The notes beneath the pieces are model-generated. The model saw only the letters and a program-made list of their open reading frames with translations. It was not told where the DNA came from and made no database searches. Shown in pieces: positions 1,099 through 28,251 of a stretch of DNA of 55,758 nucleotides (position 1 is its first letter; each line of letters starts with the position of its first letter). Location: assembly GCA_009784775.1 (NCBI GenBank), contig WQXQ01000003.1, positions 1 through 55,758 of the forward strand, written 5' to 3'. The position numbers and the translations under genes were made by a program. This stretch comes from Treponema sp. Lineage in GTDB: Bacteria; Spirochaetota; Spirochaetia; Treponematales; Breznakiellaceae.

Positions 1099-2070
1099 AT
1101 GACCATTCGTGAGGCTCTTGCGGAGGGGAGCGCGGCTCTTGGCGGTGCCGGCATTGAAAGCGCAGCACTTGACGCATCGTTGTTGCTTGCGGAAATTCTT
1201 GCCGTGAGCCGGGCCTCGCTTATTGCCGCCGGCCCTGAACCAATGGCAGAAACCTCCCTTGCCGCATTGCGCAGCCTGATCAAACGGCGGCTGGCCGGAG
1301 AAAGTGTCGCGTACATTCTGGGCAAAAAAGAATTTTACGGCCTTGAATTTATCGTAAACCCTTCGGTTTTAGTCCCCCGGCCTGATACAGAAATACTGGT
1401 AGAAGCGGTTGTAAAAGAATTAGAAATGAGAAATGAGAAATTAGAAAAGGGCAAAGGGCTTAGGGTTTTGGAACTGTGTACGGGATCGGGGGCGGTGGCT
1501 ATTGCGTTAAAGCATACCATACCGGAACTGGAAATATGGGCCACCGACATCAGCGCCGAAGCATTAATAGTCGCCCAAACCAACGCCGCCCGCCTATTAC
1601 CCCCAAACTCAATCCATTTTTCGCAAGGCGATCTCTACGATGCCCTACAAGAGGGACTGGGGAAGGCGATTCAAAAACATAGCCCATTACCAACATGCTC
1701 AGTCCACAAATATTTATCCCTAGTCCCCAGTCCCCAGTCCCCAGTCCCTATAATCCTCGCCAACCCTCCCTATATTCCCAGTGCGGAAATTGCCGGGCTT
1801 GCTCCCGAAGTGCGCGCCGAACCGGTACTTGCCCTGGACGGCGGCAGTGATGGTCTGGACTTAATCAGAACCATTATTGCCCGCGCGCCGGAATTCCTGT
1901 GCCGCAACGGCACGCTGCTGCTGGAAGCCGATCCTCGTCAAATGCCCCGCATCGCTTCCCTGCTTGCGGAAAAAGGCTTTACACACATACAAACCCACAA
2001 GGATTTATCCGGCGCAGAACGAGTCATTCAGGGGACCATTATTCATACACCCGGACCCAGTCTACCATGA
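1099..2070 (+). CDS. prmC: Release factor glutamine methyltransferase PrmC (HemK)
   Basis: PrmC uses S-adenosylmethionine to methylate the amide of the GGQ glutamine in release factors. The protein has the helical N-terminal domain (1-90), the VLVPRPDTE block before the Rossmann fold, the SAM-binding motif I VLELCTGSG at 123-131, and the catalytic NPPY at 222-225. At 323 residues it is longer than the usual 280-290. Part of the excess comes from two low-complexity insertions. One lies between PRPDTE and motif I (around residues 109-117); the other lies just before NPPY (around 209-217). Both are written by 7-base tandem repeats. The conserved C-terminal ERVI is followed by about 12 extra residues that run into the end of the convergent GH16 gene, a 32-base overlap. 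The start ATG has a GGGGG ribosome site 8 bases upstream. Confidence 0.94.
   Translation: MTIREALAEGSAALGGAGIESAALDASLLLAEILAVSRASLIAAGPEPMAETSLAALRSLIKRRLAGESVAYILGKKEFYGLEFIVNPSVLVPRPDTEILVEAVVKELEMRNEKLEKGKGLRVLELCTGSGAVAIALKHTIPELEIWATDISAEALIVAQTNAARLLPPNSIHFSQGDLYDALQEGLGKAIQKHSPLPTCSVHKYLSLVPSPQSPVPIILANPPYIPSAEIAGLAPEVRAEPVLALDGGSDGLDLIRTIIARAPEFLCRNGTLLLEADPRQMPRIASLLAEKGFTHIQTHKDLSGAERVIQGTIIHTPGPSLP
1422..1449 (+). repeat. Heptanucleotide tandem repeat in prmC (4 x AGAAATG-like)
   Basis: Four consecutive 7-base units, AGAAATG, AGAAATG, AGAAATT and AGAAAAG, encode a charged Glu/Lys/Arg/Asn stretch. It lies in the loop between the substrate-recognition domain and SAM motif I of PrmC. 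Because seven is not a multiple of three, gain or loss of one unit would shift the reading frame. Confidence 0.85.
1722..1749 (+). repeat. Heptanucleotide tandem repeat in prmC (4 x AGTCCCC)
   Basis: Three perfect AGTCCCC units and one AGTCCCT are read in frame as a Ser/Pro/Val/Gln-rich segment. It immediately precedes the ILANPPY catalytic motif. As with the array at 1422, a change of one unit would frameshift the gene. Confidence 0.88.
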
Positions 2071-4015
2071 GGCTGCGGGCTTCGCGGGCGGCGGAGCTTT
2101 CGTCCAGGAATATGTGGCTGGGGGGGCCGTCTGCGCCGCCGGAGCTGCCCAGATAGTTGCCGCCTACCGCAAGGTTAAAAATAAGAACCCAGGGTATATC
2201 GTTGTAGAATGTCGGCGCGGTTTGTTCCCGGTAAGGGAAATCATTGTATAATGGCGTCCGCGTTCGTTCATTTGTATTGGCAAATTGCCGCAGTTGGCCG
2301 TTTACATAAAAATGTACGCCCAGTCCTGCAGTACTCTCATTAAAAAGGCCGGTAGGATTTTTATCCCAGCGAACAGCGTACACATGGTAGCCGTCACCGG
2401 CACCGGGACTGGGGGTGGTGTTCACATAACGGTACCAGCGATACTGGTTCCAGAACTCTTCCTGCCCTACCGGGGTTGGAATGCCATAGTGAACCGTTTG
2501 GCCGGCAGAACTGCTGCCGTTGGTTTCCATAATGTCAATTTCGCCGCACATTGGCCAGCCTTTTGCCGGATAGCCGCTGTGCGCATCAATATCCGCGCTG
2601 AGCAGCCAGAAAGCCGGCCAAAAGCCGGTTCCTTTCGGCGTTTTTATCCGCGCTTCCACATATCCTGTGGTTACACCCATAAAATCTTTGGCAGGATAAT
2701 GGGTAACACCATTTGCGGATAAAGTTCCTTTTGTGGTTATCTTTCCGGAACCAAACGGGTAAGAGCCGGGCCGCTGCGTTACCTCAATGACAAGCCTGCC
2801 ATTTTCAACCCTGACATTTGCCGGCTGGTAGTATTGCCTTTCACTATTACCCCAGCCTGCCATGCCGCCGTATTGAACTCCAGTGCCATAATCATAATTC
2901 CATTTGTTCAGGTCAAGCTGGTTTCCGCCAAATTCATCACGCCATACCAGTCTGCCTTTGCCTGGTACATTGTCTCCCAGTTTTAATCCGTCCGCATAGG
3001 GATCGGTCTGCGGGAACACAGCGGTCACAATGCCTGAACCGGCAGCATTTGTTGCGGTTGCCCCTGCAACGGTAAAGGCATTTGCCGGCATTCCGTTCAG
3101 GGTAAATGCCGCTTTTGGTGTGATCGTTATGGTTGCGGTGTATGTGGTTAAGGCGGCAAAAATGGCAGGACTGCCGCTTACCGCTGGCGACCATGTGATT
3201 GTTCCGGTGTATTGCGCTGTTTCAGTGACAGTGGCTGCCGGAATAGCTTCGGTAACCGGAAGCATGACACCCGATATGGCGCGGATACTGACAAGGGCAA
3301 GATCGGTTTCCGGGAATACCGCGGTAATGACGCCTGCATTGGCGGCATTGGCAGCCGGTGTTGTTGTTCCCGCAACCGTAAAGAAATTTTCCGCTACGCC
3401 TTCCAGGGTAAAGCCTGTTCGGGGCGTTAGTGTTATGGTTGCCGTATACACAGTCAGACTGGCATAGGACCCGCTTACGGCCGGCGACCATGCCACGGTT
3501 CCGGTATATTGTGTTGTGGGAGTGATAGCGGTTACCCGGTTAACCCCGGTTACCGGAGGAGCTACGCCCAGTATCGTTTTAATGTCGATGGTGGCAAGAT
3601 TACCGGTGACACCGGCAGTTATCGGGAATACTGCGGTAATGATGCCGGTATTGGCGGCGTTTGTTGCCGGTGTGATTGTTCCCGCAACCGTAAAAAAGTT
3701 TTCTGCTACGCCTTGCGGGGTAAAGCCGTCTTTTGGTATTAACGTTATCGTTGCGGTGTATACGGTCGAGGCAGCAAAGGAAGTATCGGTGAAGGCAACA
3801 CCGCCGGCGCTCCATTCGATAATGCCGGTGTATTGCATTGTATCGGTAATGGCAAGCGCCGGTGTTGCCCCGCGTACCGGAACACTCACGCCCAGTATGG
3901 TGTTGATAGTAATCGCAACGGGAGGCGGGCCGGATGGAACGGTATTATTGTCCGGACAAGACACGATAAAACCGCAGAATGTCAGCATAATTGCCCATTG
4001 TTTGATTTTTTTCAT
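2039..4015 (-). CDS. GH16 endo-beta-glucanase lipoprotein with three Ig-like modules
   Basis: This is a secreted beta-1,3(4)-glucanase of glycoside hydrolase family 16, anchored as a lipoprotein. The signal peptide ends in the lipobox IVSC with Cys20, followed by PDNN. Three modules of about 100 residues (roughly 30-340) repeat a pattern of YTGTITWSP, VYTATITLTPK and an ending FTVAG. The GH16 jelly roll fills about 355-658. Its active site is GEIDIMET, with Glu492 as nucleophile, Asp494 and Glu497 as acid/base. The ending MVDWVRVYE is typical of laminarinase-like GH16. An AAGGAG site lies 7 bases before the ATG. The gene has its own strong promoter and lies beyond the terminator of its upstream neighbour. 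Its stop overlaps the end of prmC, so its transcript probably runs antisense into prmC. Confidence 0.9.
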   Translation of the reverse strand: MKKIKQWAIMLTFCGFIVSCPDNNTVPSGPPPVAITINTILGVSVPVRGATPALAITDTMQYTGIIEWSAGGVAFTDTSFAASTVYTATITLIPKDGFTPQGVAENFFTVAGTITPATNAANTGIITAVFPITAGVTGNLATIDIKTILGVAPPVTGVNRVTAITPTTQYTGTVAWSPAVSGSYASLTVYTATITLTPRTGFTLEGVAENFFTVAGTTTPAANAANAGVITAVFPETDLALVSIRAISGVMLPVTEAIPAATVTETAQYTGTITWSPAVSGSPAIFAALTTYTATITITPKAAFTLNGMPANAFTVAGATATNAAGSGIVTAVFPQTDPYADGLKLGDNVPGKGRLVWRDEFGGNQLDLNKWNYDYGTGVQYGGMAGWGNSERQYYQPANVRVENGRLVIEVTQRPGSYPFGSGKITTKGTLSANGVTHYPAKDFMGVTTGYVEARIKTPKGTGFWPAFWLLSADIDAHSGYPAKGWPMCGEIDIMETNGSSSAGQTVHYGIPTPVGQEEFWNQYRWYRYVNTTPSPGAGDGYHVYAVRWDKNPTGLFNESTAGLGVHFYVNGQLRQFANTNERTRTPLYNDFPYREQTAPTFYNDIPWVLIFNLAVGGNYLGSSGGADGPPSHIFLDESSAAREARSLMVDWVRVYE

Positions 4016-4040
4016 GAGAGCGCTCCTTTATTGTGTCATA

Positions 4041-4069
4041 ATATTAGCACCCCTATGGCTGAAAGTCAA
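4041..4069 (-). promoter_or_regulatory. Sigma-70 promoter of the GH16 gene
   Basis: On the minus strand, TTGACT (4064-4069) is separated by 17 bases from TAATAT (4041-4046). The ATG follows 25 bases later with an AAGGAG ribosome site between. The box match and spacing are close to consensus. With the terminator at 4073-4111 directly upstream, this gene is probably its own transcription unit. Confidence 0.8.
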
Positions 4070-4072
4070 TGT

Positions 4073-4111
4073 AAAAAAAACGCCCGGCCACTTGCAGTGA
4101 ACCGGGCGTTT
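4073..4111 (-). terminator. Rho-independent terminator
   Basis: Read on the minus strand, the stem AACGCCCGG pairs with CCGGGCGTT around a loop of about 14 bases and is followed by a run of eight T. It lies about 48 bases beyond the stop codon of the FnIII-rich lipoprotein gene and closes that transcription unit. Confidence 0.9.
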
Positions 4112-4158
4112 AACCATCGCGATGCAAGCACCGCTGATGGGCTAAAGATTACATTCTA

Positions 4159-7100
4159 CTACGGAGCAGCAACAGCTCTGATTTCACCAAGGTAGCACCA
4201 CAGTCCTTTACCGGTTTGAACCTGAGCGACTGTATATATCCGCCATCCCTGAATTATCTTGGTTGCCCCGGTCAATCCAAAGGCTGACAATGGAATAGTT
4301 TGCTCATACCATGTCTCGAATTGCGGTATAGTCAAGTTCGGGCCATTGACCCAAGCGCCGTTGATATACAGGTCTACCCTAAAGGTATTTCCAGCCGGAA
4401 CCGCGCCAGTAGTAGGTGCGGTACTGGGCGCTGGCTGCTCGCGCATCATGCGTGCATCAAAGGTAAGCGTGGTATACTGGCTCACATCCCAGTTATGGCC
4501 TCTCACACCAGCCCATGTGTTATTCGCGGCCCATCCTTCACCACCATTAGCCTGGAAAGAGAATATATTGGGGCGAGGAGCCGCCGCTTGTCCTGCTGAC
4601 CAGAATGACCAAGCGCCTGACTTATCACCAAACGGCGGAGGATTGGAAGCTCCAATATAGTTCGGGAGATCTGTGGGTACTTCATAAGCCGCCTGGAAAG
4701 CTGCAGTCCAGTCTTCATCGCTCATACCAGTGGTCCAGGGATTAAAGTAGCCCGGTACCGAATTAGGCGTGAAGGGCTCAAGAATCACGAACGCTCCGGC
4801 AGCAATTTGATAGGGAGTGCTGGCGCTGGTTACTCCGCCGATAGTCACTTGCAGGTTGAAAGTCCCGCCCGCCACAGTCGGTGTGATTACCTGACCAGCA
4901 GCGGTTGCGGCACCAGTAACAGTCAAGGGAGCAGTAGGATGCCAGGCAAGACTGACATTGGTTAAGTTACGGGTTTGACCGCCAACGGTATACCCTATGT
5001 TCATCGGAAGCATATTGGTAATGGGTGTAGTCGCTGGAGGCGCAGCAAGAGCCGGCATGGGATTAGTGGCAACACTGGTCACTGTCTGAGAGGTAATAAC
5101 ATATTCGACCCGGTCGATGTAGATATTAAAACCAGCAGAGGCCGCCGCAGGAAGAATTGACAGCAGTGTACCAAGTTCCATCGCGCCGTTCGGCACCGGA
5201 ATCAGTACATTTTGCCAGGTGGTAGTAAATGGAATACCGCCGCCGGTTTGACCGGTGTATGAAATAGAATGGTTTCCACTGCCGAAGCCAACAGCATTAA
5301 GGTTGCCGTTAATATCGCCTCTTATCCAGAACGAAAGCGCGGTTGCTCCGCCAAGGGGAGTCAGGTAGGGGAATGCGCCAAGCGAGCCGCCCATAATCAA
5401 TGCGCCCCAGTCGTTTTCATAGTTGAATATCAAACAGGTGTTACCGCTCAAACCTTCCTGTTGGGCTGATACCGGGAAGTTAATATTCTCACCGAACATG
5501 GTACCTGCTTCCAATACGCCCTGAGGCTGCGCATCGGTATTCGGCGCGCCGTCTATCAAGACGCGATATGTTGCTATCGGGCCAAATGTTACTTCTACTG
5601 TTACATCGCCGGCGGGCATGGTAAAGTTGGGCCTGCCAATGAGAGATGTTGCGGCATCAATTAAATCGTACACTCTGAGCTGCGTACTGGGTGTAACCCG
5701 CATTACTCTGACAATAACCGGTTCCATTCCGGCCGGCGGGGTTATATCCAGGTAGACCATCTCGTTGCTAGGCGATGATGTCGGATTGCCGTTTTCAGTT
5801 GCAGCAGTAACGGTACCGGTACCGTTTACTGTCGGCAGAATGGTAATGTTGTATTCTACTGCCGCAGGCTGGAATGGCGTTGCGGACATAACATTCGAAT
5901 CACCGTTGGCATACCCCACAGCAGTCGCGGTTACTACAACGCTATAGGTGGTACCGTTGGTCAAACCAGTAATGGTATAAGGCGACACAGCGGGAGCATT
6001 GGTTGCCGCTGCTTTGATCTGCGCTGGGGTAAGATCAGCACCAACTGCCCAGTGTACCGTGTAGCTGGTTGCCGCAGGACTTGAAGCTGCCCAGGTAACG
6101 GCAATGGTTCCATTCCCTGCGGTAGCGGCAGTCAAATTCGGCATTGTGGTAAAGGGCGGCGAAGCCGGAGTTCCGGTTATAGGATCCGATGTGTCGTTGC
6201 CCAGATAGTTAGCCAAAGTCGCTACAACCACGAGGTTGATGAGCCGGCCATTGGTCAAACCAGTTATGGTACCGGTCACCGCAGTAGTAGGTTGCGTATT
6301 TCCATTGTCTATAATGATGTCTACAGGATGCACAGTTTGACTACCAGCAGCATTCTGGATGTAGTATATCGTGTAGCTGCTTGCCGCAGGAACTGAATCA
6401 GTAATGGTATAGGTAAGGCTGTTATGCGCTGGCGCAACGGTCAAAATCGGCGCCGTGGTGAACGGTTGTACTCCCGGACCTGCTGCTACCGGAGTGCCGG
6501 TTGCAACGGCCGATACGTCGTTGCCTGCATAATTAGCCAAAGTTGCTCGTACCACAAAACTGTAGGTGGTATTGTTGGTCAAACCGCTGATGGTGTTTGA
6601 TCCCACGGTAACAGTCTGGGGTGTTCCAGCAAGGAGCGTTGCCTCAGGTACAGCAGCACCCGCCGCATAGTAGAGCGCATAGCTGGACGCCGCAGGAGCT
6701 GAAGCGACAAGGTTAAAGGTAATACTGGTATCACCATTTACCACAGTGTTTATAACCGGAGCGGTGGTGAACGGTTGCACCGGTATCGCCGGGATGGCAT
6801 TCGCCACTGCCGATGTTCTATTTCCGGTATAACCAGTCAAAGTCGCCTGTACCACAAAACTGTAGGCTTGATCATTGGTCAAACCGCTGATGGTATTTGA
6901 TCCCACAGTAACAGTCTGGGGTGTTCCGGTAAGAAGCGTTGCCTCAGGTACAGAAGCGCCCGCCGCATAGAATACCGCATAGCTGGACGCCACAGGATTT
7001 GAAGCACCAAGCGTAAAGGTAATGCTTTGATTTGCGGTCGTAATAGCGCTTATAGCCGGCGCCGTAATGAAATTCTGAACCGCAGCAGCAGGTGTTCTTT

Positions 7101-7770
7101 GCAGAACGCCCGATGCGTCGTTGCCCGAATGGGTAGCCAAGGTTGCTACGACCACAAAACTGTATTCCAGATCGTTGGTCAAACTGCCGATGGTATTAGC
7201 TCCCACAGTAGCTGCTTGTGAATAGCCGTTTGCAATGAGCGCAGTCGCATCTACATTTCCTACATTGTAATACAGCATATAGCTGGTCGCCGCAGGAACT
7301 GAAGCAACAAGATCAAAGGTAATACTAAGGTTTGCTGCCAAAGCATTGCTTATAGACGGTGCTGTGGTGAATTGAGGAAGCAGTGTTGATGTAAACAAAA
7401 CCCGCACTTCCGCGTCATAAGCCGGCATTTCGAATGTGTAATCGCCCCCGGTGCCTGCAGTTGTAGCAAGGAACGTAGATCCATTGCCGACTTCGGTTTC
7501 TGCATACACTCTAACCCAGGTAATTGCGAAATTCGTATTCGCAGTCACATTCACGGTTACCGTAGTGCCTACGGCTACTTTTCCCGTAGTAGGCGAGGTT
7601 CTTGTTATAGAACCACCAGTGCTTCCTACAACAGCCTCATCCAGAAAATATTCCGCCGGCGGTGGTGTGGGTGTAGTACCACCATCATTGGGACAGGCGG
7701 TGAACATAAATGCACCAACCAGTAAAAAGATTCCGGCAATGCCGAAAATACTAAAGTTCTTTTTCCTCAT
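4159..7770 (-). CDS. FnIII-repeat lipoprotein with paired jelly-roll (carbohydrate-binding-like) domains
   Basis: No catalytic domain is visible in this 1203-residue protein. It starts MRKKNFSIFG, and the lipobox FTAC is followed by PNDGG. One InlB-like module is followed by five fibronectin-III-like modules of about 100 residues. Each of these has FTTAP at its start, a central Y-x-(L/I)-(Y/H)-(Y/W), and a GLTN...YSFVV block. A second InlB-like module comes next. Two beta-sandwich domains (about 760-885 and 993-1203) are joined by an Ig-like linker; the first ends IYIDRVEYV, a strand typical of CBM4/9/11-like jelly rolls. The likely role is glycan capture at the cell surface beside the glucanases. 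The ATG at 7770 is chosen because GAGGAG lies 7 bases upstream and the lipoprotein signal begins there. An in-frame extension upstream lacks both. Confidence 0.82.
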   Translation of the reverse strand: MRKKNFSIFGIAGIFLLVGAFMFTACPNDGGTTPTPPPAEYFLDEAVVGSTGGSITRTSPTTGKVAVGTTVTVNVTANTNFAITWVRVYAETEVGNGSTFLATTAGTGGDYTFEMPAYDAEVRVLFTSTLLPQFTTAPSISNALAANLSITFDLVASVPAATSYMLYYNVGNVDATALIANGYSQAATVGANTIGSLTNDLEYSFVVVATLATHSGNDASGVLQRTPAAAVQNFITAPAISAITTANQSITFTLGASNPVASSYAVFYAAGASVPEATLLTGTPQTVTVGSNTISGLTNDQAYSFVVQATLTGYTGNRTSAVANAIPAIPVQPFTTAPVINTVVNGDTSITFNLVASAPAASSYALYYAAGAAVPEATLLAGTPQTVTVGSNTISGLTNNTTYSFVVRATLANYAGNDVSAVATGTPVAAGPGVQPFTTAPILTVAPAHNSLTYTITDSVPAASSYTIYYIQNAAGSQTVHPVDIIIDNGNTQPTTAVTGTITGLTNGRLINLVVVATLANYLGNDTSDPITGTPASPPFTTMPNLTAATAGNGTIAVTWAASSPAATSYTVHWAVGADLTPAQIKAAATNAPAVSPYTITGLTNGTTYSVVVTATAVGYANGDSNVMSATPFQPAAVEYNITILPTVNGTGTVTAATENGNPTSSPSNEMVYLDITPPAGMEPVIVRVMRVTPSTQLRVYDLIDAATSLIGRPNFTMPAGDVTVEVTFGPIATYRVLIDGAPNTDAQPQGVLEAGTMFGENINFPVSAQQEGLSGNTCLIFNYENDWGALIMGGSLGAFPYLTPLGGATALSFWIRGDINGNLNAVGFGSGNHSISYTGQTGGGIPFTTTWQNVLIPVPNGAMELGTLLSILPAAASAGFNIYIDRVEYVITSQTVTSVATNPMPALAAPPATTPITNMLPMNIGYTVGGQTRNLTNVSLAWHPTAPLTVTGAATAAGQVITPTVAGGTFNLQVTIGGVTSASTPYQIAAGAFVILEPFTPNSVPGYFNPWTTGMSDEDWTAAFQAAYEVPTDLPNYIGASNPPPFGDKSGAWSFWSAGQAAAPRPNIFSFQANGGEGWAANNTWAGVRGHNWDVSQYTTLTFDARMMREQPAPSTAPTTGAVPAGNTFRVDLYINGAWVNGPNLTIPQFETWYEQTIPLSAFGLTGATKIIQGWRIYTVAQVQTGKGLWCYLGEIRAVAAP
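6455..7362 (-). repeat. Three tandem FnIII-coding repeats with a period of about 300 bases
   Basis: Copies at about 6455-6762, 6763-7062 and 7063-7362 are strongly alike at DNA level. For example, the segments ending at 6600, 6900 and 7200 align at offsets of exactly 300. Each encodes one FnIII module. Such near-identical tandem DNA is prone to unequal recombination, so module number may vary between strains. Confidence 0.8.
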
Positions 7771-7806
7771 ACATTTCTCCTCATCTATAAGGATATGCTT
7801 TTTTTT

Positions 7807-7823
7807 CTTGTTCAACGAACAAG
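7807..7823 (-). other. Short leader hairpin upstream of the FnIII lipoprotein gene
   Basis: The 7-bp stem CTTGTTC/GAACAAG with a 3-base loop lies 36 bases before the ATG at 7770. On the minus strand it is followed by A, not T, so it is not a terminator for the upstream gene. Hairpins at a similar distance precede the genes starting at 10882 and 13917. No convincing promoter was found in this 88-base gap. Confidence 0.5.
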
Positions 7824-7858
7824 TTTTATTAAAAACACTCAGGCAACGCCCGGCGTAA

Positions 7859-10882: not shown

Positions 10883-10904
10883 GCGTTCCTCCATGTTATC
10901 TACC

Positions 10905-10933
10905 CTAATATAATATACAGCTAAAAAGCTCAA
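10905..10933 (-). promoter_or_regulatory. Possible promoter for the GH128 gene at 7859-10882
   Basis: TTGAGC (10928-10933) and TATTAG (10905-10910) on the minus strand are 17 bases apart, each matching consensus at four of six positions. The -35 lies inside the arm of the long hairpin at 10918-10964. A run of alternating TA around 10909-10917 offers other -10 choices, so this is tentative. Confidence 0.35.
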
Positions 10934-10964: not shown

Positions 10965-11032
10965 CAAGAAAGCCGGCCTTGCACACCGACCCTCTTGCAG
11001 GCAGCGGATTGGTAACCCGCGCATTGTCATGC

Positions 11033-11066: not shown

Positions 11067-11079
11067 CTGGTACTAAACC

Positions 11080-13917: not shown

Positions 13918-13936
13918 AAGCTTCTCCTCTACCTTA

Positions 13937-15440: not shown

Positions 15441-15452
15441 GTATATACTCCT

Positions 15453-18857: not shown

Positions 18858-18866
18858 ACAATCCCC

Positions 18867-19652: not shown

Positions 19653-19670
19653 AATATACTTACCTCCGTG

Positions 19671-20636
19671 TTATTTCCGGTACACTCGTATCCAGTCCAC
19701 CATAAAGCAGCGATCTTCATAAGGGGCATCATCCTCGAAGACTGAGTCATCGGGGGTTTTGCCGCCAGAGAAGGCGCCGGCAATGGCGAGGTTCAGGTTA
19801 ATGACGAAGCCTGTTTTGGCATTGAATGCTTCCTTAACGTAGAACTCTTTGCCGTTATCGTCATGGAGCTGCTGCATATCAATGGAATACCAAATTTCGC
19901 CGTCAAACAAAAAGTGCATGAACTTACTGTCCCAGGTAACACCGTATACATGAAAGTCATCGGCAAGGTTAATATCTATTTTCTGGGACTTGCCATCGGC
20001 CCGGTTCAGCGGCCAATAGGGACCAAAATGGACGGTGGACATCAGTTGGTTTTCCTGACCGCCCCTGATTTCCAAAACATCAATTTCACCAGCGCGCGGC
20101 CAGCCGTATACTTTTTTGGTGTCGCCATATTTGTTTGTGGTCGCGCCGATAAGCCAGAAAGCCGGCCAGAAACCAACGCCGCGGGTGGAACGAATGCGCG
20201 CTTCTACCCGGTCACCAGGCAGCGCCACAAATTTTTGGGTACCGGTGGTCAGACCATCATGCGACAAATTGCCGCCGGTGGTGATTTTTCCCGAAGTAAA
20301 CACAACGCCGCCCGCCGTATCCCTTTTGTCATAGTCGGCATTGTCTTTGCGCGATTCAAGGTACAGGATGCCGTCTTTTACCACGACATTTTCCGGCCGG
20401 TAGAACTGCAATTCATTGTTGCCCCAGCCGGTCAAACCGTACTGAGCGCCGGTGCCGGTATCGATATTCCATTTGGTTAAGTCCAGCGAATCGCCGTCAA
20501 ACTCATCGCTCCATACCAGAGTTCCCCCGGTTACAAAAGGCTCATCGTGCGCCACCAGCATCATATTGCTCGCGCATGCACCCGCCATAATTAATGCAAT
20601 ACCACAAAAAATTATAATCCATTTGTTGTTCTTCAT
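19671..20636 (-). CDS. GH16 endo-beta-1,3-glucanase (laminarinase-like) lipoprotein
   Basis: A single-domain GH16 enzyme of 321 residues. The signal peptide ends in the lipobox AGAC. The catalytic jelly roll starts LVWSDEFDG and includes GWGNNELQFY, a substrate-cleft block typical of laminarinases. Its active site is GEIDVLEI: Glu184 nucleophile, Asp186 and Glu189 acid/base. It ends MVDWIRVYRK. It differs from the GH16 at 2039 by lacking Ig-like modules, although GTGAQYG and the active-site region are shared. AAGGAG lies 6 bases before the ATG, and the gene is 17 bases from its upstream neighbour. It should cut beta-1,3-linked glucan at the cell surface or in the periplasm. Confidence 0.93.
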   Translation of the reverse strand: MKNNKWIIIFCGIALIMAGACASNMMLVAHDEPFVTGGTLVWSDEFDGDSLDLTKWNIDTGTGAQYGLTGWGNNELQFYRPENVVVKDGILYLESRKDNADYDKRDTAGGVVFTSGKITTGGNLSHDGLTTGTQKFVALPGDRVEARIRSTRGVGFWPAFWLIGATTNKYGDTKKVYGWPRAGEIDVLEIRGGQENQLMSTVHFGPYWPLNRADGKSQKIDINLADDFHVYGVTWDSKFMHFLFDGEIWYSIDMQQLHDDNGKEFYVKEAFNAKTGFVINLNLAIAGAFSGGKTPDDSVFEDDAPYEDRCFMVDWIRVYRK

Positions 20637-20653
20637 CGTCTTCTCCTTGTTAA

Positions 20654-23600
20654 TTAAAATGTATAGTTAAAGTACAGTATCAATTCCTGCGAATCTCTGC
20701 CCTGGCTTGCGTTGGGGGAGAACCGGTCGCGGATTACCCCATTCCAGCGAATGCCAACCCTGTTCGACGAGTCCATCAACGATGGTCTGTGGGTAAGGCC
20801 CCAGGCTAAATCAAAGCCCCAGCGCATGGGGTAGGTTTGGTTATTTTCCCGATCGGAGCTTACCGGCCCCCACAGGTCAAAGGCTACCAAACCGGAGAAT
20901 ACTACCCGCTTGTAGCGGAACCGGAGCGATTCCTGCCAGCCGGTAATGACTTCCCGCTCAGCATCGGCGCTGTCCGGTATGCCGTTCCAGGCAAAACCAC
21001 GGGTAAAGTCCAGCGAATTGGCAACACGGATATCATTTTTGGGATTCCAGAAAACCATCCAGCCCAGTTCGTAGTTACCGTATGTTTCCGGATAGCCGCT
21101 GTAGTCAGACCGGAACTTCCCATCGGCGCCTTTGCGGGTTCCGGGGTCGGAGAGTCCCTCAAAGATATTGTAGCGCCCCCGTACTCTGGTGGCAAATAAA
21201 GCACCTTCGGTATCCCACACATTCCATTCCCAGAGCCATGACGCCGGCTCAAGGTCAAAGGAGAATATGGCTTCCAGACTCAGCATTTCACGATTTCCGC
21301 CAACCGCAAAGGGCTCGACGGGTCTGTTGATACTATGTATCGCCCCAGCTCCTATATACTTGCTGGTAACCGGACCCTGCAAAGGTTTCCGGTACAGGCC
21401 GTTCAGGGCAGCGCCGTAGTTTCTGTATGTGCCGTTTACGCCGCCTTTTATTTCAAAGCGGTTTCCCGTGCCAATATCGGCAAAAATCGTACTCATAAGG
21501 GGCGGTACCCAGTTGCTGTTCGCCACCAGACCGGCGTGTATGATTTCCGTTTGGAAACCTAAAATTCGTCCCGTCCGGTATTCAACCCGCAACTTGGTCG
21601 CAAGGGTATCAAGGGCGGTTATTTCCCCTTCTTTAAGGAGATATCCATCTTTATCAAGACCAGGGTAGTAATTTACATCGGTGTTCCGCAAGAAATACCC
21701 TTCGCCGATTTTCTGGAAATTGGTTCCCATTATGCCCACTTGTACCTGGAAAAACGGCGCGGCCACCCAACCAATGGGCGGTGTCGCCGCGCTTCGGGTA
21801 GGTGTCCAGGAGAACCACAGTGAACCGGTCGTATTGGGTTTTTCATAGACACCAAGGTCCTCATATTCGCCCTTTTCTTCATTAAGGTGCGAGAATGACT
21901 GGCCGACCATAACCGAATAGGCCATATAATGACCTTTTACCCATTCACCTTCTTTGTACCATTTTCCCAAAATCATGGGAGGGGCGCCGGCATAAATTTT
22001 GGGGCCCATGATAACCGCAAGCCCCTGCCTTCCCTGCATCCCAAAGTTATATCTTCCTTCTACGGCGATGGGGGACTTTACGTTCCATATATCATCGCTG
22101 TACAAGTCATATTTTTCTGTATTTAAATTGAAGAAGTCGCCTTCACCCAGCCAGCTGCCTTTGCCATGGTGGTAGTGGGCGTTTATTTCCGCGCCAAAAC
22201 CTTTCCAGGTGAACCAGCCCTGATACACATCGAAGGGCCGTTCCGCCAGTCCCATTTCCTGCGTCCGGTAAATGTCTGACCGTACCGGTCCTTCTCCGGT
22301 AACCATATCATGCCGCATATACACGGTGGCTCCGCCTTCAAGTTTGCCGCCGCTAATGGTTCCCAGTTCAGTTTGGCCCCAGAAGGTCGTTGACAGTTTA
22401 ACGCCGTATTGGGTGTCTTTGAATGCGGTAAAGAAATTTTCACCGTCTTCTTTCATGGTTTTTTGCACATCATCGCCGGTTTGCATGGCAAGAACATTCA
22501 CCTCATTGGTTACTCTCCAATTGGGTGGTTTCTCAACGGCGTCCCGGCCGCGAGCCAGCGCATAGGCATAATCCAGTTTGGCAAAATGGGAATCGATGGT
22601 GGCGGCGCCTTCATCGGCTGAATCGGCGAGCCTCCAGGGATCAGCGCTCCAGATATGCTGTAACGTATAATAAGACGCGCGGGGTATCTTTTCGCGGAAC
22701 CAGGCGACATATTTACGCTCTCCCTGGCTGGTAATACCCATCCATTCAGGAGTCATGTTCGCGTGCCGCGGCGTATGAGAAAATGTGTAATCCGGCACTT
22801 CGCCGGTCGGCTCGGTATTGTGGATATGTATTTGCGCTCCGCCTGCCGAACCATAGTCATTTTTATACCATTGGTCGGTCCATTCACTGACAAAACCGCC
22901 AATATTGTTTGATTGGCCCTTGCCGTAGGCATTGCCGTACATATCCTTCCATTGATTGACAATCCACAGGGCCTGATTGTATTGATCTTCCCGCATATGC
23001 TTGGCGTTCCAGGCCGGCGCTCCAAACGAGCCAATGATAACCGGCTTGTTCAGTTTTTGCCTGGCCTCACGCCAAAAATCCGGGTTTGTCCGCATAGCCG
23101 CCCAATCGTAGAACTGACCCAGGGTACACGCGATGAAATCCAGACTGGGACATTCATCGGCAATAAGGTCAATCGAGCTAAGGCCGTTGGTCAAAAACCC
23201 TACCGGACGGTCGGGATCAAGGTCTTTTGTTTGTTGAAATACATCTTCGGTTAGAGAGAAAAGGGCCCGGGCTTTGCGCAAGCCCGGATTGGACCCGTAT
23301 TTTCTGGCAACATCGGGGTCGTTGTCATGGTATTTGCCCGACCCTTCATAGTAAAGACCCTCCGGATTCCCGTCTCCAAACAAGTAGCCGAGTATACCGC
23401 TTGCGTCTTTATACCGGTTGACCATATTATAGGCCTTTTTCATGACATTTTGACGCACTTCGGGGTCATAGTAATTGGCAGTATGGCCATAGATGCCAGA
23501 CCAGCGCTCAAGATCATAGTTGACAAGGGTAAGAATGTCGAAATTGTTGTACAGATATTCTACCCATCTTCGTGGGATATCCGGACCGGTTCTAATTGCA

Positions 23601-23860
23601 TTAATACCCGCCGCCCGCATCAGCTCGCCTTCATAGTCGAGTACTCTGCGGATAGTTGTATCACCTTCATTCCATAGGTTGTATGTAAAGCTGGTTCCCG
23701 GCGGATTAACGGCAAAAACAACCCCTTTTACAAACATCTGTTTGCCATCAACAAGGAGTTCCCAGCCGTCATTGCTGTTCTGGACAACCTTAACAACCTG
23801 TGCCCATGCCCCAGCCAAAACAACTAAAAATAGAACAAATAACAGCGCTGTTCTTTTCAT
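20654..23860 (-). CDS. TIM-barrel glycosidase fused to a C-terminal outer-membrane beta-barrel
   Basis: This 1068-residue protein has two parts. After a Sec signal peptide cut at AWA|Q comes a TIM-barrel domain (about 20-470). Its opening FVKGVVF and GINAIRTGPDIP resemble GH2 and GH72-like enzymes. The probable nucleophile is Glu326 in GGFVSEWTDQW. The expected acid/base site reads FGDGNPEG with Glu167, where related enzymes have a GNE motif, so the assignment is uncertain. From about 480 to the end the sequence alternates polar and aromatic/aliphatic residues in short strands and ends YFNYTF, the C-terminal Phe signature of BAM-inserted barrels. The enzyme would thus be tethered in the outer membrane. 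It is the second gene of the glucan operon, with a GGAAGG site before the ATG. Which side of the membrane the enzyme faces is not known. Confidence 0.8.
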   Translation of the reverse strand: MKRTALLFVLFLVVLAGAWAQVVKVVQNSNDGWELLVDGKQMFVKGVVFAVNPPGTSFTYNLWNEGDTTIRRVLDYEGELMRAAGINAIRTGPDIPRRWVEYLYNNFDILTLVNYDLERWSGIYGHTANYYDPEVRQNVMKKAYNMVNRYKDASGILGYLFGDGNPEGLYYEGSGKYHDNDPDVARKYGSNPGLRKARALFSLTEDVFQQTKDLDPDRPVGFLTNGLSSIDLIADECPSLDFIACTLGQFYDWAAMRTNPDFWREARQKLNKPVIIGSFGAPAWNAKHMREDQYNQALWIVNQWKDMYGNAYGKGQSNNIGGFVSEWTDQWYKNDYGSAGGAQIHIHNTEPTGEVPDYTFSHTPRHANMTPEWMGITSQGERKYVAWFREKIPRASYYTLQHIWSADPWRLADSADEGAATIDSHFAKLDYAYALARGRDAVEKPPNWRVTNEVNVLAMQTGDDVQKTMKEDGENFFTAFKDTQYGVKLSTTFWGQTELGTISGGKLEGGATVYMRHDMVTGEGPVRSDIYRTQEMGLAERPFDVYQGWFTWKGFGAEINAHYHHGKGSWLGEGDFFNLNTEKYDLYSDDIWNVKSPIAVEGRYNFGMQGRQGLAVIMGPKIYAGAPPMILGKWYKEGEWVKGHYMAYSVMVGQSFSHLNEEKGEYEDLGVYEKPNTTGSLWFSWTPTRSAATPPIGWVAAPFFQVQVGIMGTNFQKIGEGYFLRNTDVNYYPGLDKDGYLLKEGEITALDTLATKLRVEYRTGRILGFQTEIIHAGLVANSNWVPPLMSTIFADIGTGNRFEIKGGVNGTYRNYGAALNGLYRKPLQGPVTSKYIGAGAIHSINRPVEPFAVGGNREMLSLEAIFSFDLEPASWLWEWNVWDTEGALFATRVRGRYNIFEGLSDPGTRKGADGKFRSDYSGYPETYGNYELGWMVFWNPKNDIRVANSLDFTRGFAWNGIPDSADAEREVITGWQESLRFRYKRVVFSGLVAFDLWGPVSSDRENNQTYPMRWGFDLAWGLTHRPSLMDSSNRVGIRWNGVIRDRFSPNASQGRDSQELILYFNYTF

Positions 23861-23887
23861 CTCTAACCTTCCTTTACTGGGGAAACA

Positions 23888-24640
23888 TTATCTTTTAACC
23901 ACTGTCCCGTAAGACCAAGTGCTCGGATCTTTCCACGCATTATCGGTGGGTGTCCGCCAGTTTACGATAAATTCGCGCGCCATTTCTGGCTCTTCTTCTT
24001 CGGATTTGGCGGTATTGATTCGGAATTCAAGCATTACCGTTTGATTTGCTTTCAAAGGCTTTTTCATGCTCAGCGCATCCAGAGAGATGCTCATATCAAG
24101 AATGTAGGAATTTTCGGTCCATTCGACGACCGCACCCTTAAATTGCCGGCTGTTGAATCGCCCTATTTGAACCCTCAGGTCGCCGTCTTCTTCTTCCGGC
24201 TGCACTACAAACATTTGCAGGCCAACATCGCCGTCCGTATATTCGGTGCGTTTTTTGGTATTGGTACCAAAGAACACCTGCAGAGAGGTTCCATTCCATA
24301 CCGAACCCAGCTCAAAATCATGCGGCCAGGCTCTGAGGGACTTGTCAAAGATATCAGCGCGGACATACAGGTTGCCTGTGTCTGCGGCAAGGTAGAATGT
24401 ACCGTATACTTCTTCTCTGCTTCCGCCCCAGGGATGCCTGCTGACCGAAACCCCATCAAGGCCGTCAAAGAAATCGCCGAATTCGCCAACGGTAAGGGCT
24501 TTATCCGTCAGATATATTTTCGCCATCTCGTAGTTTACCTTGGGCTGCGAAGCGCAGGAAACAAGGGCGAAAACCGACACCGCGCACAAAGCTATGATCA
24601 TTGTGCGGACCGAAAGAATTTGTGTTTTATGACTTGACAT
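23888..24640 (-). CDS. CBM9/DOMON-like lipoprotein, first gene of the glucan operon
   Basis: A 250-residue lipoprotein; the lipobox LVSC ends an unusually long n-region. The mature part has the layout of a CBM9-like sugar-binding domain. It includes GTFYLAADTGNLYVRADIFD early, a central LQVFF and GLQMFVV, and later YILDMSISLDAL and LEFRIN. The role is probably binding released glucan ends or another sugar; it has no visible catalytic residues. It opens the ten-gene minus-strand cluster and is divergent from the importer operon. No Shine-Dalgarno precedes the ATG, and the -10 box lies only 6 bases upstream, so a leaderless message is likely. An internal ATG at 24601 is an alternative start but also lacks a ribosome site and would give a very short n-region. 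Confidence 0.78.
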   Translation of the reverse strand: MSSHKTQILSVRTMIIALCAVSVFALVSCASQPKVNYEMAKIYLTDKALTVGEFGDFFDGLDGVSVSRHPWGGSREEVYGTFYLAADTGNLYVRADIFDKSLRAWPHDFELGSVWNGTSLQVFFGTNTKKRTEYTDGDVGLQMFVVQPEEEDGDLRVQIGRFNSRQFKGAVVEWTENSYILDMSISLDALSMKKPLKANQTVMLEFRINTAKSEEEEPEMAREFIVNWRTPTDNAWKDPSTWSYGTVVKR

Positions 24641-24662
24641 ACATCTATAATACAGGTACTCT
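24634..24662 (+). promoter_or_regulatory. Promoter of the importer operon
   Basis: On the plus strand, TTGACA (24634-24639) is 17 bases from TACTCT (24657-24662), a perfect -35 with a weak -10. It overlaps the opposing promoter, so polymerase can occupy only one at a time. An alternative plus-strand -10, TATAAT at 24646-24651, lacks a good -35. Confidence 0.55.
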
Positions 24663-24676
24663 TAAGGCTATGTCAA
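24647..24676 (-). promoter_or_regulatory. Promoter of the glucan-degradation operon
   Basis: On the minus strand, TTGACA (24671-24676) is 18 bases from TATTAT (24647-24652). The ATG at 24640 follows after 6 bases. With the plus-strand -35 it forms an inverted repeat, TTGACATA at 24634-24641 and TATGTCAA at 24669-24676, which could also be an operator. Confidence 0.75.
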
Positions 24677-24713
24677 CACTTTTTTTTAATAATATCATAA
24701 TTAGGTTAGGCGT

Positions 24714-25661
24714 ATGAGAATTAACCAACCAAATCTGTGGAAACGGTTCCGGCAAGAAAAATACCTGCAAATAATGGCCCTTTTTGGGCTTCTTTGGATG
24801 GTCATTTTTAACTACGCCCCCATGTATGGCTTATTGATAGCTTTCAAGCAAAACTTCAGGCCAACCGAAAGTATATTCAGCCTTTCCTTTTTGACCTCGG
24901 GTTGGGCCTCACACGGCGGGTTTAATCACTTTATTGCCTTTATCAAAGACCCTGAATTTGCGCATATTCTCCAAAATACCCTGGGAATCAGCCTGTTGCG
25001 GCTCTTTGTGGTCTTTCCGCTGCCCATTATTTTCGCATTGTTGCTCAATGAAGTGCATTTACCGCAGTTTAAGCGCTTTGTACAGACCATTTCCTACCTG
25101 CCCCACTTCCTTTCATGGGTAGTTTTAGGCGGTATTTTGACCACATGGCTCTCTGAAACCGGCTTTTTCAATGATATATTGGTCAAAATGGGCGTATTAA
25201 AGCAGGGAGTCACCTTTCTGGCGTTTCCCCAGTACTTTTGGGGTATTATTACGATATCCTCAATATGGAAGGAACTTGGCTGGTCGGCGATTATCTACCT
25301 TGCCGCCATAAGCGGTATTGATCAGGATATGTACGAAGCCGCGGAAATTGACGGGGTAGGACGCCTCCAAAAAATATGGCATATTACCCTGCCCTGCATT
25401 ATGGGAACCATTACGATTCTGTTCATTCTTGCGGTTGGCGGGCTGTTAAACTCGAATTTTGACCAAATTCTGGTATTATGGAACCCACTTAATGCTCCCC
25501 GCAGTAACGTGATAGACATATATACCTATCACTCAGCCATGCGGAGTATGCGGTTTTCTTATGCCGCCGCGATTGGCTTCTTTAAGTCTATTGTTGCCTT
25601 TGGCCTTCTGTTTGGAGCCAACAGGATAACCAAGAAACTCAACGATGTGTCGCTCTTTTAG
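24714..25661 (+). CDS. Carbohydrate ABC transporter permease, LplB type (CUT1)
   Basis: An inner-membrane permease of 315 residues with about six hydrophobic helices. The N-terminus (KYLQIMALFGLLWMVIFNY) and the NYAPMYGLLIAFK block are typical of the LplB/YteP family that imports oligosaccharides. The cytoplasmic EAA loop is EAAEIDGVGRLQKIWHITLP, beginning at Glu208, which docks the ATPase. The C-terminus ANRITKKLNDVSLF also fits the family. The gene heads the plus-strand operon, with the second permease 23 bases downstream. The ribosome site is weak (AGG repeats before the ATG). The substrate is inferred from the divergent glucanase genes. Confidence 0.92.
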   Translation: MRINQPNLWKRFRQEKYLQIMALFGLLWMVIFNYAPMYGLLIAFKQNFRPTESIFSLSFLTSGWASHGGFNHFIAFIKDPEFAHILQNTLGISLLRLFVVFPLPIIFALLLNEVHLPQFKRFVQTISYLPHFLSWVVLGGILTTWLSETGFFNDILVKMGVLKQGVTFLAFPQYFWGIITISSIWKELGWSAIIYLAAISGIDQDMYEAAEIDGVGRLQKIWHITLPCIMGTITILFILAVGGLLNSNFDQILVLWNPLNAPRSNVIDIYTYHSAMRSMRFSYAAAIGFFKSIVAFGLLFGANRITKKLNDVSLF

Positions 25662-25684
25662 AGCGCTGTTTTAGGAGACCTGTT

Positions 25685-26557
25685 ATGGAAAAGCCCTTAG
25701 GCATCAGCGATTTTATCATTATTGCGATAATGGTGTTAATTTGTATTGTTACCCTGTATCCGGTATGGAATGTCACGGTTATTTCGTTCAATGACTCCCA
25801 GGACACCATGATGGGCAATATATACCTGTGGCCCCGGAAATTTTCACTGGAAAGCTACCGTATGGTGTTTATGGACAAGGCTATCGTACAGGCTTTCACC
25901 ATTACCGTGCTTCGTACCCTGATTGGGACGGCAACCGGCGTGTTTTTTACCTCCATGGTTGCCTATGCGTTCTCCAAAAGGTACATTCTGGGCAGCCGGT
26001 TTTACCTGACCGTTGGTACGATTACCATGTTCTTCGGCGGCGGGCTTATTCCCTACTTTATTTTGCTGCGGAGCCTTGGATTGTACGATACGTTCCTGGT
26101 ATATATCATTCCCGGCCTGTTTAATTTCTTCTATTGTATCATTTTCATGACCTTTTTCCGGGAATTACCGGCCAGTTTGGAAGAATCGGCAAAAATCGAC
26201 GGGGCTAACGACTTTTTTATCTTTATTCGCATCATTTTGCCCCTGTCCATGCCGGTTATCGCGACTATTACCCTTTTTGCCGGCGTTGGCCACTGGAATG
26301 ACTACTTTGCGGGGGTCATGTTTGTGAATAACCCCGATTTACAGCCGATTCAGACCTTTTTGTATCGCGTTATTGCCAGCTCATCGCAAACAAGGTCCAT
26401 TGTCGGGATGCCTGCGAGTGTATCGGCCCAGGCGGTCAGTTCCACATCGGTACAGTTGGCAACAATGGTGGTAACCACCGCACCGATTATTTGTATCTAT
26501 CCATTCCTGCAGCGCTACTTTGTGAAGGGCGTTATGATTGGAGCGATTAAAGGATAA
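25685..26557 (+). CDS. Carbohydrate ABC transporter permease, YtcP/LplC type (CUT1)
   Basis: The partner inner-membrane permease, 290 residues with six hydrophobic segments. It contains TLYPVWNVTVISFND near the start, the family phrase GGGLIPYFILLRSLGLYD, and the EAA loop EESAKIDGANDFFIFIRIILP beginning at Glu166. It ends QRYFVKGVMIGAIKG, a hallmark of LplC/YtcP permeases. The upstream gap is 23 bases with an AGGAG site. It should form a heterodimer with the preceding gene product. No ATP-binding subunit is encoded nearby; in this subfamily a shared MsmX-like ATPase usually serves several importers. Confidence 0.93.
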   Translation: MEKPLGISDFIIIAIMVLICIVTLYPVWNVTVISFNDSQDTMMGNIYLWPRKFSLESYRMVFMDKAIVQAFTITVLRTLIGTATGVFFTSMVAYAFSKRYILGSRFYLTVGTITMFFGGGLIPYFILLRSLGLYDTFLVYIIPGLFNFFYCIIFMTFFRELPASLEESAKIDGANDFFIFIRIILPLSMPVIATITLFAGVGHWNDYFAGVMFVNNPDLQPIQTFLYRVIASSSQTRSIVGMPASVSAQAVSSTSVQLATMVVTTAPIICIYPFLQRYFVKGVMIGAIKG

Positions 26558-26592
26558 GGAAAAAATATTTATATCATTTGAGGAGGAAAGAG

Positions 26593-28251
26593 ATGAGAAA
26601 GAGTGTGATGTTAGTGTTGGTTGTCGCCATTGTAACGGCGATGGCATTGGTTGCCTGTAAGAATAGAGATTCGTTTATTCCTGCAGTAGCAAGCACCTCG
26701 GCGGATGTTCCGGGATGGACGTTAAATACCGAAAAACCCATCCGGTTTGACTGGTACATCCATTTTAACTGGTTTAGCCGGCAATGGGGCGATTCCCGGG
26801 TATCGAAGTACATTACCGAGAAAACAGGCGTGGATGTCCGCTTTATCGTACCGGCAGGAGCCGAAGATGACCGGCTTAACGCAATGATCGCTGGTCAGGT
26901 ATTGCCCGATTTTATCACCCTGGGCCATTGGGCGGTTCAAATCCCCATGATGATCGATGCGGGATTGCTTTTGCCGCTGGAAGAACTTGCCGATCAGTAT
27001 GATCCCTACTTCTTTGAAGTAGCAAATCCGCAAAGACTGGGCTGGTTCCGCCACAATAACAACAATGTCTATGGGTATCCCAATGCGTCTTTTACCCCCA
27101 CTGACATTGAACGGTACAGAGGTTTACTGGATTCCAACCAGACCTTCCTGGTTCGCAAGGATATGTATGAAGCTATTGGCAGCCCCGACATGACCACGCC
27201 GGAAGGTTTCCTGAATGCGCTGCGCAAAGCGCGGGATACATTCCCCGTCATAAACGGCCAACCCATTATTCCGATGGGCTTTGGTGAATTTAACGCCACC
27301 GGCAACGTAACACTCCACGACTATCTTCTTAACTTCCTGGCTATACCGCGGGAAAACGCAAATGGCGTATTTGAAAACCCGGATCTGGGCTATAACCACC
27401 CCGAATATGTGCGCTGGCTGAAAGTATTCCGCCAGGCCACCGAAGATGGGCTTATCCCCATGGACACATTTGTTGACAATCGTCCGCAGATTGAAGAAAA
27501 AGCCGCACAGGGACGTTTCTTTGCCATGCTCTATCAGAACTGGGATATGCAGGCTCCTCAAAATGCCCGCTACAATATTGACCCCAATACGATTTACATA
27601 GCGGTTCCCGGCCCCAAAAACAGCCGCGGCGATGATCCCAGGCTTGCTTCCGGCGGAATTTCCGGCTGGACATTAACGCTGATTTCCAAAAACGTAAAAG
27701 ACAAGGCCCGCGCCATTCAGTTCATGAGTTACCTCTTGAGCGAAGAAGGCCAGATGGACCTCTTCTTTGGCGTTCCCGAAGGCAATCCCTTTGGTATTGA
27801 GCCGACTTACTCCATTGTTGACGGCGTACCCACCCTGCTTCCCGAAATTAAAGATATGGACAAGTTCGACAAGAACCGCCAGGAAATTGAAATTGGCGTT
27901 CAGTACACCTACTGGATGCTGATGAACAACCCCTGGACCTATCAGTTCCCCCGTGAATTTTCTCCGGCACTGGAACAACCGCAGTTGTGGACACGGCCTT
28001 ATGTGACTTCGTACACCATGTACGACCGGCTTGATATGGAAGCCGGCAGTGAAGAAGCCCTTATTAAAGACAATATTGCCCGCCGCTGGGGAAGAGACCT
28101 GCCCCGGCTGTTCCTGGCAAAAACGAATGCGGAATTTGACCAAATCTGGGTTGACTTCCAGAAGTTTAAAGTTGACCAGGGTTATAGCAAGCTGCAAGCC
28201 AAACAAATGGAATTGGTGAACCAGAACAAAGCAAAACTGGGCGTACACTAA
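26593..28251 (+). CDS. Extracellular solute-binding lipoprotein of the CUT1 importer
   Basis: A 552-residue lipoprotein (lipobox LVAC) that delivers sugar to the two permeases. Length and sequence fit the large LplA/YtcQ-type binding proteins. Recognisable features are VSKYITEKTGVDVRF, the DDRLNAMIAGQVLPDFI hinge region, and the C-terminal DLPRLFLAKTNAEFDQIWVDF segment followed by a Lys/Gln-rich helix. The start is set by a perfect AGGAGG at 26581-26586 with 6-base spacing; an upstream in-frame TTG overlaps it and is rejected. It is the last gene of the operon and is followed by a strong terminator. It probably binds oligosaccharides released by the divergent glucanases. Confidence 0.92.
   Translation: MRKSVMLVLVVAIVTAMALVACKNRDSFIPAVASTSADVPGWTLNTEKPIRFDWYIHFNWFSRQWGDSRVSKYITEKTGVDVRFIVPAGAEDDRLNAMIAGQVLPDFITLGHWAVQIPMMIDAGLLLPLEELADQYDPYFFEVANPQRLGWFRHNNNNVYGYPNASFTPTDIERYRGLLDSNQTFLVRKDMYEAIGSPDMTTPEGFLNALRKARDTFPVINGQPIIPMGFGEFNATGNVTLHDYLLNFLAIPRENANGVFENPDLGYNHPEYVRWLKVFRQATEDGLIPMDTFVDNRPQIEEKAAQGRFFAMLYQNWDMQAPQNARYNIDPNTIYIAVPGPKNSRGDDPRLASGGISGWTLTLISKNVKDKARAIQFMSYLLSEEGQMDLFFGVPEGNPFGIEPTYSIVDGVPTLLPEIKDMDKFDKNRQEIEIGVQYTYWMLMNNPWTYQFPREFSPALEQPQLWTRPYVTSYTMYDRLDMEAGSEEALIKDNIARRWGRDLPRLFLAKTNAEFDQIWVDFQKFKVDQGYSKLQAKQMELVNQNKAKLGVH

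Follow-up and report, generated by a model that had tools for sequence, protein, structure and literature searches.

Introduction

The beta(1,3)-glucan utilization loci of Bacteroides encode a GH16 enzyme and a separate GH158 enzyme together with surface glycan-binding proteins, a TonB-dependent transporter and a SusD homologue (PMC7157763; here and below, statements on cited articles cover the parts of each text that were available to us). In this work we analyze a locus in a 55,758-nt stretch of Treponema sp. DNA (WQXQ01000003.1, hereafter the window) that resembles these systems in its GH16 enzymes, GH158-like domain, putative glycan-binding lipoproteins and probable beta-1,3-glucan target. 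It differs from them in that no SusD was found, in that the GH158-like domain forms one chain with a predicted outer-membrane beta-barrel and has lost its catalytic residues (gene P0009), and in that the inner-membrane step is assigned to a CUT1-type importer.

Beta-1,3-glucan clusters without SusCD are already known, and the barrel-fused GH158-like domain with lost catalytic residues is the variant seen here. GH149 phosphorylase genes occur in polysaccharide utilization loci (PULs) and in susCD-lacking carbohydrate-active enzyme (CAZyme) clusters of Bacteroidetes, and in type I and type II clusters of Proteobacteria (PMC5827456). As in the window, beta-1,3-glucan enzymes are clustered there with transporters, partly without susCD. 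There the GH149 phosphorylase gene belongs to the cluster; the window genome instead carries a GH161-type gene on another contig. The term spirochaet is absent from the text of that article, and no barrel-fused enzyme appears in the parts of it considered here. In Formosa, GH149 lies near TonB receptors and SusD (PMC6246565). A comparable laminarin PUL of Muricauda unites a GH2-annotated enzyme, GH16, GH149 and a LuxR regulator (PMC13188888). Described GH161 clusters likewise combine a beta-1,3-glucan phosphorylase with importer genes, the ATPase missing in the majority, but their examples come from Paenibacillus, Bacillus and Acholeplasma and include no outer-membrane component in the passages available (PMC6484121). 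Breznakiellaceae are among the spirochaetes reported to degrade plant polymers in the termite gut, in a text from which the term GH128 is absent (PMC11481507); termite-gut clusters are also treated in PMC6298952.

An earlier note on the window, made from its letters, had proposed a spirochaetal PUL-like system without SusC/SusD. We consider it likely that the locus serves to capture and take up beta-1,3-glucan and that the enzyme-like domain of P0009 is non-catalytic yet retained, most likely for binding or gating at the channel. The crossing of the outer membrane by polysaccharide fragments outside the SusCD paradigm is poorly understood, and a glucanase-like domain and a barrel in one chain, linked to GH16 and phosphorylase genes in several phyla, constitute a concrete transport candidate. 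A naturally inactive form sets binding apart from catalysis and would show which half of the protein is required for transport.

Loss of catalytic residues in a barrel-fused GH158-like protein

The central gene of the locus is the following.

P0009, 20654..23860, minus strand: 1068-aa fusion of a signal peptide, a GH158-like TIM domain (residues ~22-410) and a predicted outer-membrane beta-barrel (~450-1068).

Structure prediction gives P0009 a glycosidase fold and a barrel, and its C-terminal residue is Phe, so that the protein combines the predicted barrel and the C-terminal aromatic residue by which outer-membrane beta-barrels are recognized. By itself P0009 yields no Pfam match at E 0.1, nothing at E<=1 against solved structures and no match in two scans of viral contigs. 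Only the family profile matched solved structures, with GH158 best (9oro 1.1e-9, 6pal 9.4e-9) and GH2 from 4.5e-5, and the GNE and TEFG motifs align between this profile and the GH158 structures. In a fold comparison of the P0009 TIM domain GH158 was tied with GH2, and all six family members tried exceeded the cut-off of the Pfam GH2 TIM-barrel model (22.1-46.4 bits vs 21).

The catalytic Asn-Glu pair and nucleophile Glu are kept in 85/85 other family members and are absent from the TIM domain of P0009. Both catalytic Glu and the Asn preceding the acid/base are replaced there (D163, G164, S278), with further changes at Y248, R249 and W353. Two of the sets compiled around P0009 comprised 33 and 45 relatives beside the window protein. 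The closest other carrier of P0009 belongs to a different genus of the same family (genome G577), and E164G, E278S, N224T and W353G are common to both. In a barrel tree of 40 rows, which leaves out G067 for having no copy of the motif used to cut the barrel, the two group as one clade (support 100/100) whose stem measures 2.32 changes per column. Since the substitutions are common to both and the clade is single, the catalytic loss is probably older than the split between them. Two further genomes of the window's family, G464 and G465, keep the catalytic residues and are placed elsewhere in this tree. The fusions of Treponema bryantii and Treponema sp. JC4 are residue-intact as well.

The loss is concentrated in the enzyme-like half. 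Among near-invariant TIM columns, 24/59 are broken in the window and 17/59 in G577, compared with 8 in the worst residue-intact member and a median of 0; among near-invariant barrel columns, the 5/35 broken in the window equal the worst residue-intact member (Fisher p 0.010 for TIM vs barrel in the window). The window and G577 proteins share 66% identity in the barrel and 58% in the TIM domain, the reverse of the order found in 45/45 pairs of ten residue-intact members.

The earlier note had described an outer-membrane-anchored glycosidase. The fold and the barrel stand as predictions, and glycosidase action is not supported, both catalytic glutamates being gone; a live surface glycosidase was dropped as a candidate on the evidence of the alignments. 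P0009 might still act as an enzyme through other residues, or as a transglycosylase, given that the TIM fold remains and that D241, P273, G280, D329, W331, K333, N368 and E372, invariant in 74/74 members, are all kept. However, alanine at N136, E137 or E220 of BuGH158, the equivalent residues, abolishes activity (PMC7157763), and together with the replacements listed above, four of them common with G577, this makes a surviving activity very unlikely.

A gene decaying within an operon and without function in this lineage would also account for the active-site loss and for the very long stem of the two-member clade. Against decay, the 1068-aa frame is open, and so are the frames of the second genus at the stated 58-66% identity; the C-terminal aromatic is kept and barrel columns are broken at no more than the rate of the worst residue-intact member. 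The ratio of nonsynonymous to synonymous rates (dN/dS) between the window and G577 is low in both parts (0.13 for the TIM domain, 0.19 for the barrel), a rough figure with dS near saturation (2.4 and 1.4), and seven neighbouring genes give 0.07-0.29. We therefore hold decay to be unlikely and favour a retained, non-catalytic domain.

The fusion family across phyla

When named genomes were scanned with the family alignment, at least 585 stretches matched, of which 567 were confirmed and 80 loci kept; the family is thus larger than the loci examined. By record titles and tree labels, members come from Spirochaetota, Bacteroidota, Gemmatimonadota, Myxococcota, Pseudomonadota, Ignavibacteriota and Balneolota. 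Members of 1025-1152 aa were obtained from 74 of the kept loci, the ORF (open reading frame) caller giving none at the remaining six (L069, L075, L081, L082, L096, L133).

Of the 66 loci that carry no Spirochaetota label, 52 have a GH16 gene inside the fetched stretch and 36 a GH149 gene, the usual positions being the second and third gene downstream of the fusion, respectively. The gene between fusion and GH16, studied in a set of 47 of 65 downstream genes, carries immunoglobulin (Ig)-like Big_2 domains in 27/47 and CBM11 (a carbohydrate-binding module, CBM) in 9/47. GH16 (9), GH17 (6), GH30 (3) and GH3 (2) recur among 63 neighbour proteins of nine loci, a set that leaves out 48 of 111 proteins (all of L073, L085, L097, L105, L108 and L119, and seven single proteins). 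None of the SusC, SusD, TonB and Plug models is among the 25 families listed for these 63 proteins, 43 further families lying outside that list. At individual loci, a divergent 1120-aa gene of L052 is by sequence a GH149 beta-1,3-oligosaccharide phosphorylase (6hq6, 1.5e-266), and a gene of L041 is GH64 (1.7e-79). The TIM domain also occurs alone (~390-430 aa), with no barrel, in some genomes of the same phylum (L150:8023-9315, L151:5416-6597).

These data do not bear out the specifically spirochaetal character that the earlier note had given the arrangement: barrel-fused relatives accompanied by GH16 and GH149 occur in Bacteroidota, Pseudomonadota and other phyla, and a spirochaete-specific cassette was dropped once the scan of genome contigs had placed the fusion outside the phylum. 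We found no description of the barrel fusion in titles, opening parts of abstracts and passages of the openly accessible literature. The enzyme of the Muricauda PUL is called a GH2 beta-glycosidase, and the passages available mention no barrel, spirochaete or inactive version (PMC13188888). It probably belongs to the fusion family, because Allomuricauda locus L116 holds the fusion, GH16 and GH149, an argument from gene content rather than from sequence comparison. On a wider reading, which we advance tentatively and hold for possible rather than probable, the GH158-like-barrel fusion would be a port dedicated to the entry of beta-1,3-glucan, independent of SusCD, in at least five phyla, its enzyme half having become a non-catalytic binding gate in one spirochaete lineage where GH16 and GH128 lipoproteins do the cutting.

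Organization and gene content of the locus

The draft genome to which the window belongs, as contig C3, amounts to 2.40 Mb in 153 contigs and is 92.7% complete. In agreement with the gene number, strands and coordinates given earlier, the ORF table holds ten minus-strand ORFs (2039-24640) and three plus-strand ORFs (24714-28251). The minus-strand run is indeed tightly spaced (-8 to 146 bp), with a divergent gap of 73 bp. Besides P0009, the run comprises:

P0001, 2039..4015, minus strand: 658-aa lipoprotein with N-terminal repeats (by eye), then GH16 with EIDIME.
P0002, 4159..7866, minus strand: fn3-repeat lipoprotein with a CBM11-like module (~residues 838-922), its translation probably beginning at Met 33.
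P0003, 7859..10933, minus strand: lipoprotein with a GH128-type domain (residues 600-829).
P0004, 11080..13917, minus strand: fn3 lipoprotein with a CBM11-like module (~residues 564-642).
P0005, 14001..15440, minus strand: GH128-type lipoprotein with a CBM6 domain.
P0006, 15453..18857, minus strand: 1134-aa lipoprotein with InlB-type repeats (Pfam).
P0007, 18867..19652, minus strand: 261-aa lipoprotein with a counterpart in G577 (40-47% identity).
P0008, 19671..20636, minus strand: GH16 lipoprotein of laminarinase type, EIDVLE.
P0010, 23888..24640, minus strand: CBM9-type lipoprotein (6.4e-15, Pfam), recurring beside P0009 homologues in spirochaetes.

A lipobox pattern is present, as had been noted, in nine of the ten minus-strand proteins and in the importer protein P0013, P0009 being the sole case of the ten with none. 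The signal peptides of P0002, P0003, P0010 and P0013 seem by eye to begin at internal Met codons, so the listed starts of these four probably lie upstream of the true ones.

The two GH16 and two GH128-type enzymes of the earlier note are upheld. P0001 and P0008 exceed the Pfam GH16 cut-off of 22 bits (31.1 and 46.2), both with an intact ExDxxE motif, and the best solved relative of P0008 is the endo-beta-1,3-glucanase 2vy0 (2.9e-32). P0003 and P0005 match Glyco_hydro_cc in Pfam (5.6e-45 and 1.7e-44) and retain the NEPN and WLTEFC motifs with two catalytic Glu; solved relatives of P0005 include 8j3x, 6uaw and 6uav. The listings name Glyco_hydro_cc, and we take these motifs and solved relatives to be those of GH128. 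Two further places in the genome encode GH128-type proteins (G000:C64:1781-3037, G000:C26:11120-12445), those of C26 adjoining lipoproteins related to P0004.

Of the five binding-type lipoproteins proposed, three are supported: P0010 through CBM9, and P0002 and P0004 through a CBM11-like module. The latter assignment comes from a home-built profile of the first module of the fusion-neighbour gene (17 of the 47 proteins), which matched P0002 (domain E 4.6e-8) and P0004 (2.9e-7) in a search of a small protein set. The Pfam scan gives only InlB-type repeats for P0006 and, at E 0.1, no family for P0007. The C-terminal CBM-like matches of P0003 fall below Pfam cut-offs, and an NCBIfam scan of the ten minus-strand proteins gave zero matches above cut-off.

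The divergent genes form the importer:

P0011, 24714..25661, plus strand: CUT1-type permease, BPD_transp_1 (Pfam).
P0012, 25685..26557, plus strand: second CUT1-type permease, assigned through homologues, outside the Pfam scan.
P0013, 26578..28251, plus strand: substrate-binding lipoprotein, SBP_bac_1 (Pfam), with 55-61% identity in the Treponema-type loci examined.

The CUT1 permease pair and binding protein reported earlier are thereby confirmed. The locus has no ATPase gene of its own; a UgpC/MsmX-type ATPase is encoded at G000:C5 (481.9 bits vs a cut-off of 432, a control also exceeding the cut-off in 8/14 genomes) and would serve P0011/P0012, completing the set of two permeases, binding lipoprotein and ATPase expected of a CUT1 importer.

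The searches agree with the claimed absence of SusC/SusD. SusD had 0 matches in the 92.7% complete genome, in a search whose control matched in 1/14, and the TonB plug none on the window contig, with four matches elsewhere (contigs C32, C33, C76, C78). The locus accordingly shows no SusC/SusD pair of the kind that marks a Sus-like PUL.

Substrate

No clear GH149 was found in the window genome, where the best match (1.4e-4) pointed to a GH161-type phosphorylase gene on contig C4. Next to this gene are those of a secreted relative of 4pew and of two GH16 lipoproteins, the last two also matching the CBM11-like module profile; we take 4pew to be a GH55 exo-beta-1,3-glucanase. The region (G000:C4:34000-53848; L154:6179-18162) is a second candidate beta-1,3-glucan locus in this genome.

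The window locus might instead target another glucan, such as a mixed-linkage, fungal or host polymer. GH16 spans several substrates, P0001 and P0008 match 1,3-1,4-glycanase and kappa-carrageenase models far below cut-off (NCBIfam), and the companion module resembles CBM11. On the other hand, beta-1,3-directed partners (GH149 and GH161 phosphorylases, GH64, GH128 and the 4pew relative) turn up repeatedly, either at related loci or elsewhere in this genome, which makes another target rather improbable and favours beta-1,3-glucan. Use of beta-1,3-glucan by the window spirochaete is suggested; a gut or fungal source would be a guess.

Co-conservation and patchiness

G577 carries nearly the whole gene set on two contigs. 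On the first, the genes of the binding protein and of two permeases diverge from those of a CBM9 lipoprotein and the initial portion of the fusion; on the second come the rest of the fusion, then relatives of GH16, P0007, P0006 and P0005 in window order, followed by P0003, a P0004-like protein, one unmatched lipoprotein-like protein and a P0002-like protein, the order of P0003 and P0004 being swapped. No separate P0001 relative was seen on these contigs. We counted gene families at 26 spirochaete loci that contain a P0009 homologue; many of these loci are truncated at contig ends, some are close relatives of each other, and one genome supplied two. We obtained GH16 in 19, CBM9 in 18, the P0013-type binding protein in 17, a CUT1 permease in 9, GH149 in 6, GH128 in 4, GH161 in 2 and GH64 in 1 at a strict threshold (L042 and L061, with weaker CBM9 matches, are uncounted for it). 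In four Treponema-type loci (L044, L046, L048, L049) the P0013-type binding protein adjoins the fusion genes with no permease genes nearby. In a further genome, G045, a single 6.6-kb contig encodes the binding protein together with two GH128-type proteins.

Several observations weigh against a cluster acting as a unit. Counting the window genome, P0009 is present in 3/98 relatives, 22/392 genomes drawn from the phylum and 4/195 of the family, and in 0/38 same-genus genomes; P0013 (E<=1e-100) is found in only 5/98 relatives and P0005 (E<=1e-20) in only 2/98; and G003 has the importer genes, with no hydrolases, on a 12.5-kb contig. This absence from most same-genus genomes would suit the rival reading that independent CAZyme lipoproteins and a general sugar importer have come to lie together by chance, but nearly the same gene set in G577, and the repeated association, in other families, of the binding protein with CBM9, the fusion and GH16, leave chance with almost no credibility. 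A glycan locus without SusCD is expected to join CAZymes for one substrate to transport genes and to keep them together across genomes, and this is found here, patchily within the genus.

Co-occurrence across spirochaetes, the check suggested in the earlier note, is largely borne out, by G577 and the 26 loci, with patchiness within the genus. The joint PUL-like action on beta-1,3-glucan proposed there gains from the co-travelling genes and loses P0009 as an enzyme, besides being weakened by the same-genus absences.

Proposed mechanism

Our favoured reading of a capture and uptake cluster would proceed as follows. Cutting of the polymer would be left to the two GH16 and two GH128-type lipoproteins, families whose presence suggests this action, while the CBM-bearing lipoproteins would hold it. 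Oligosaccharides would then cross the outer membrane via the P0009 barrel, which would replace SusC as the CBM lipoproteins would replace SusD. N-terminal domains of barrel proteins normally face the periplasm, and the P0009 TIM domain is therefore expected there rather than on the surface. P0013 would receive the oligosaccharides, P0011/P0012 would import them with a shared ATPase, putatively the C5 UgpC/MsmX-type one, and the GH161-type enzyme of contig C4 may phosphorolyse them.

Intergenic region and flanking genes

The promoter region that the two gene groups had been proposed to share is the following.

Divergent intergenic region, 24641..24713, no strand assigned: promoter-like matches.

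Three promoter-like sites lie in 24400-24900, where shuffled sequence gives 0.8 on average (sd 1.1); this is suggestive only. The best lies on the minus strand (24676-24647, 11/12 positions) and fits better with P0010 starting at its second Met.

In G577, relatives of P0019, P0018 and P0017 lie directly downstream of the glucan lipoproteins (L145:15055-18541); in the window P0017-P0019 (29686-32924) lie beyond the importer, on the other side, so that the flank arrangement differs. Further along, a pair of similar proteins of 1218 and 1040 aa is encoded side by side at 32949-39737, both having Ig-like repeats and a C-terminal part of barrel-like appearance. At 40743-51878 lies a lipoprotein-like ORF of 3711 aa in which Ig-like segments are repeated. 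Both regions are described by eye, and the latter overlaps a second long ORF at 51751-55731.

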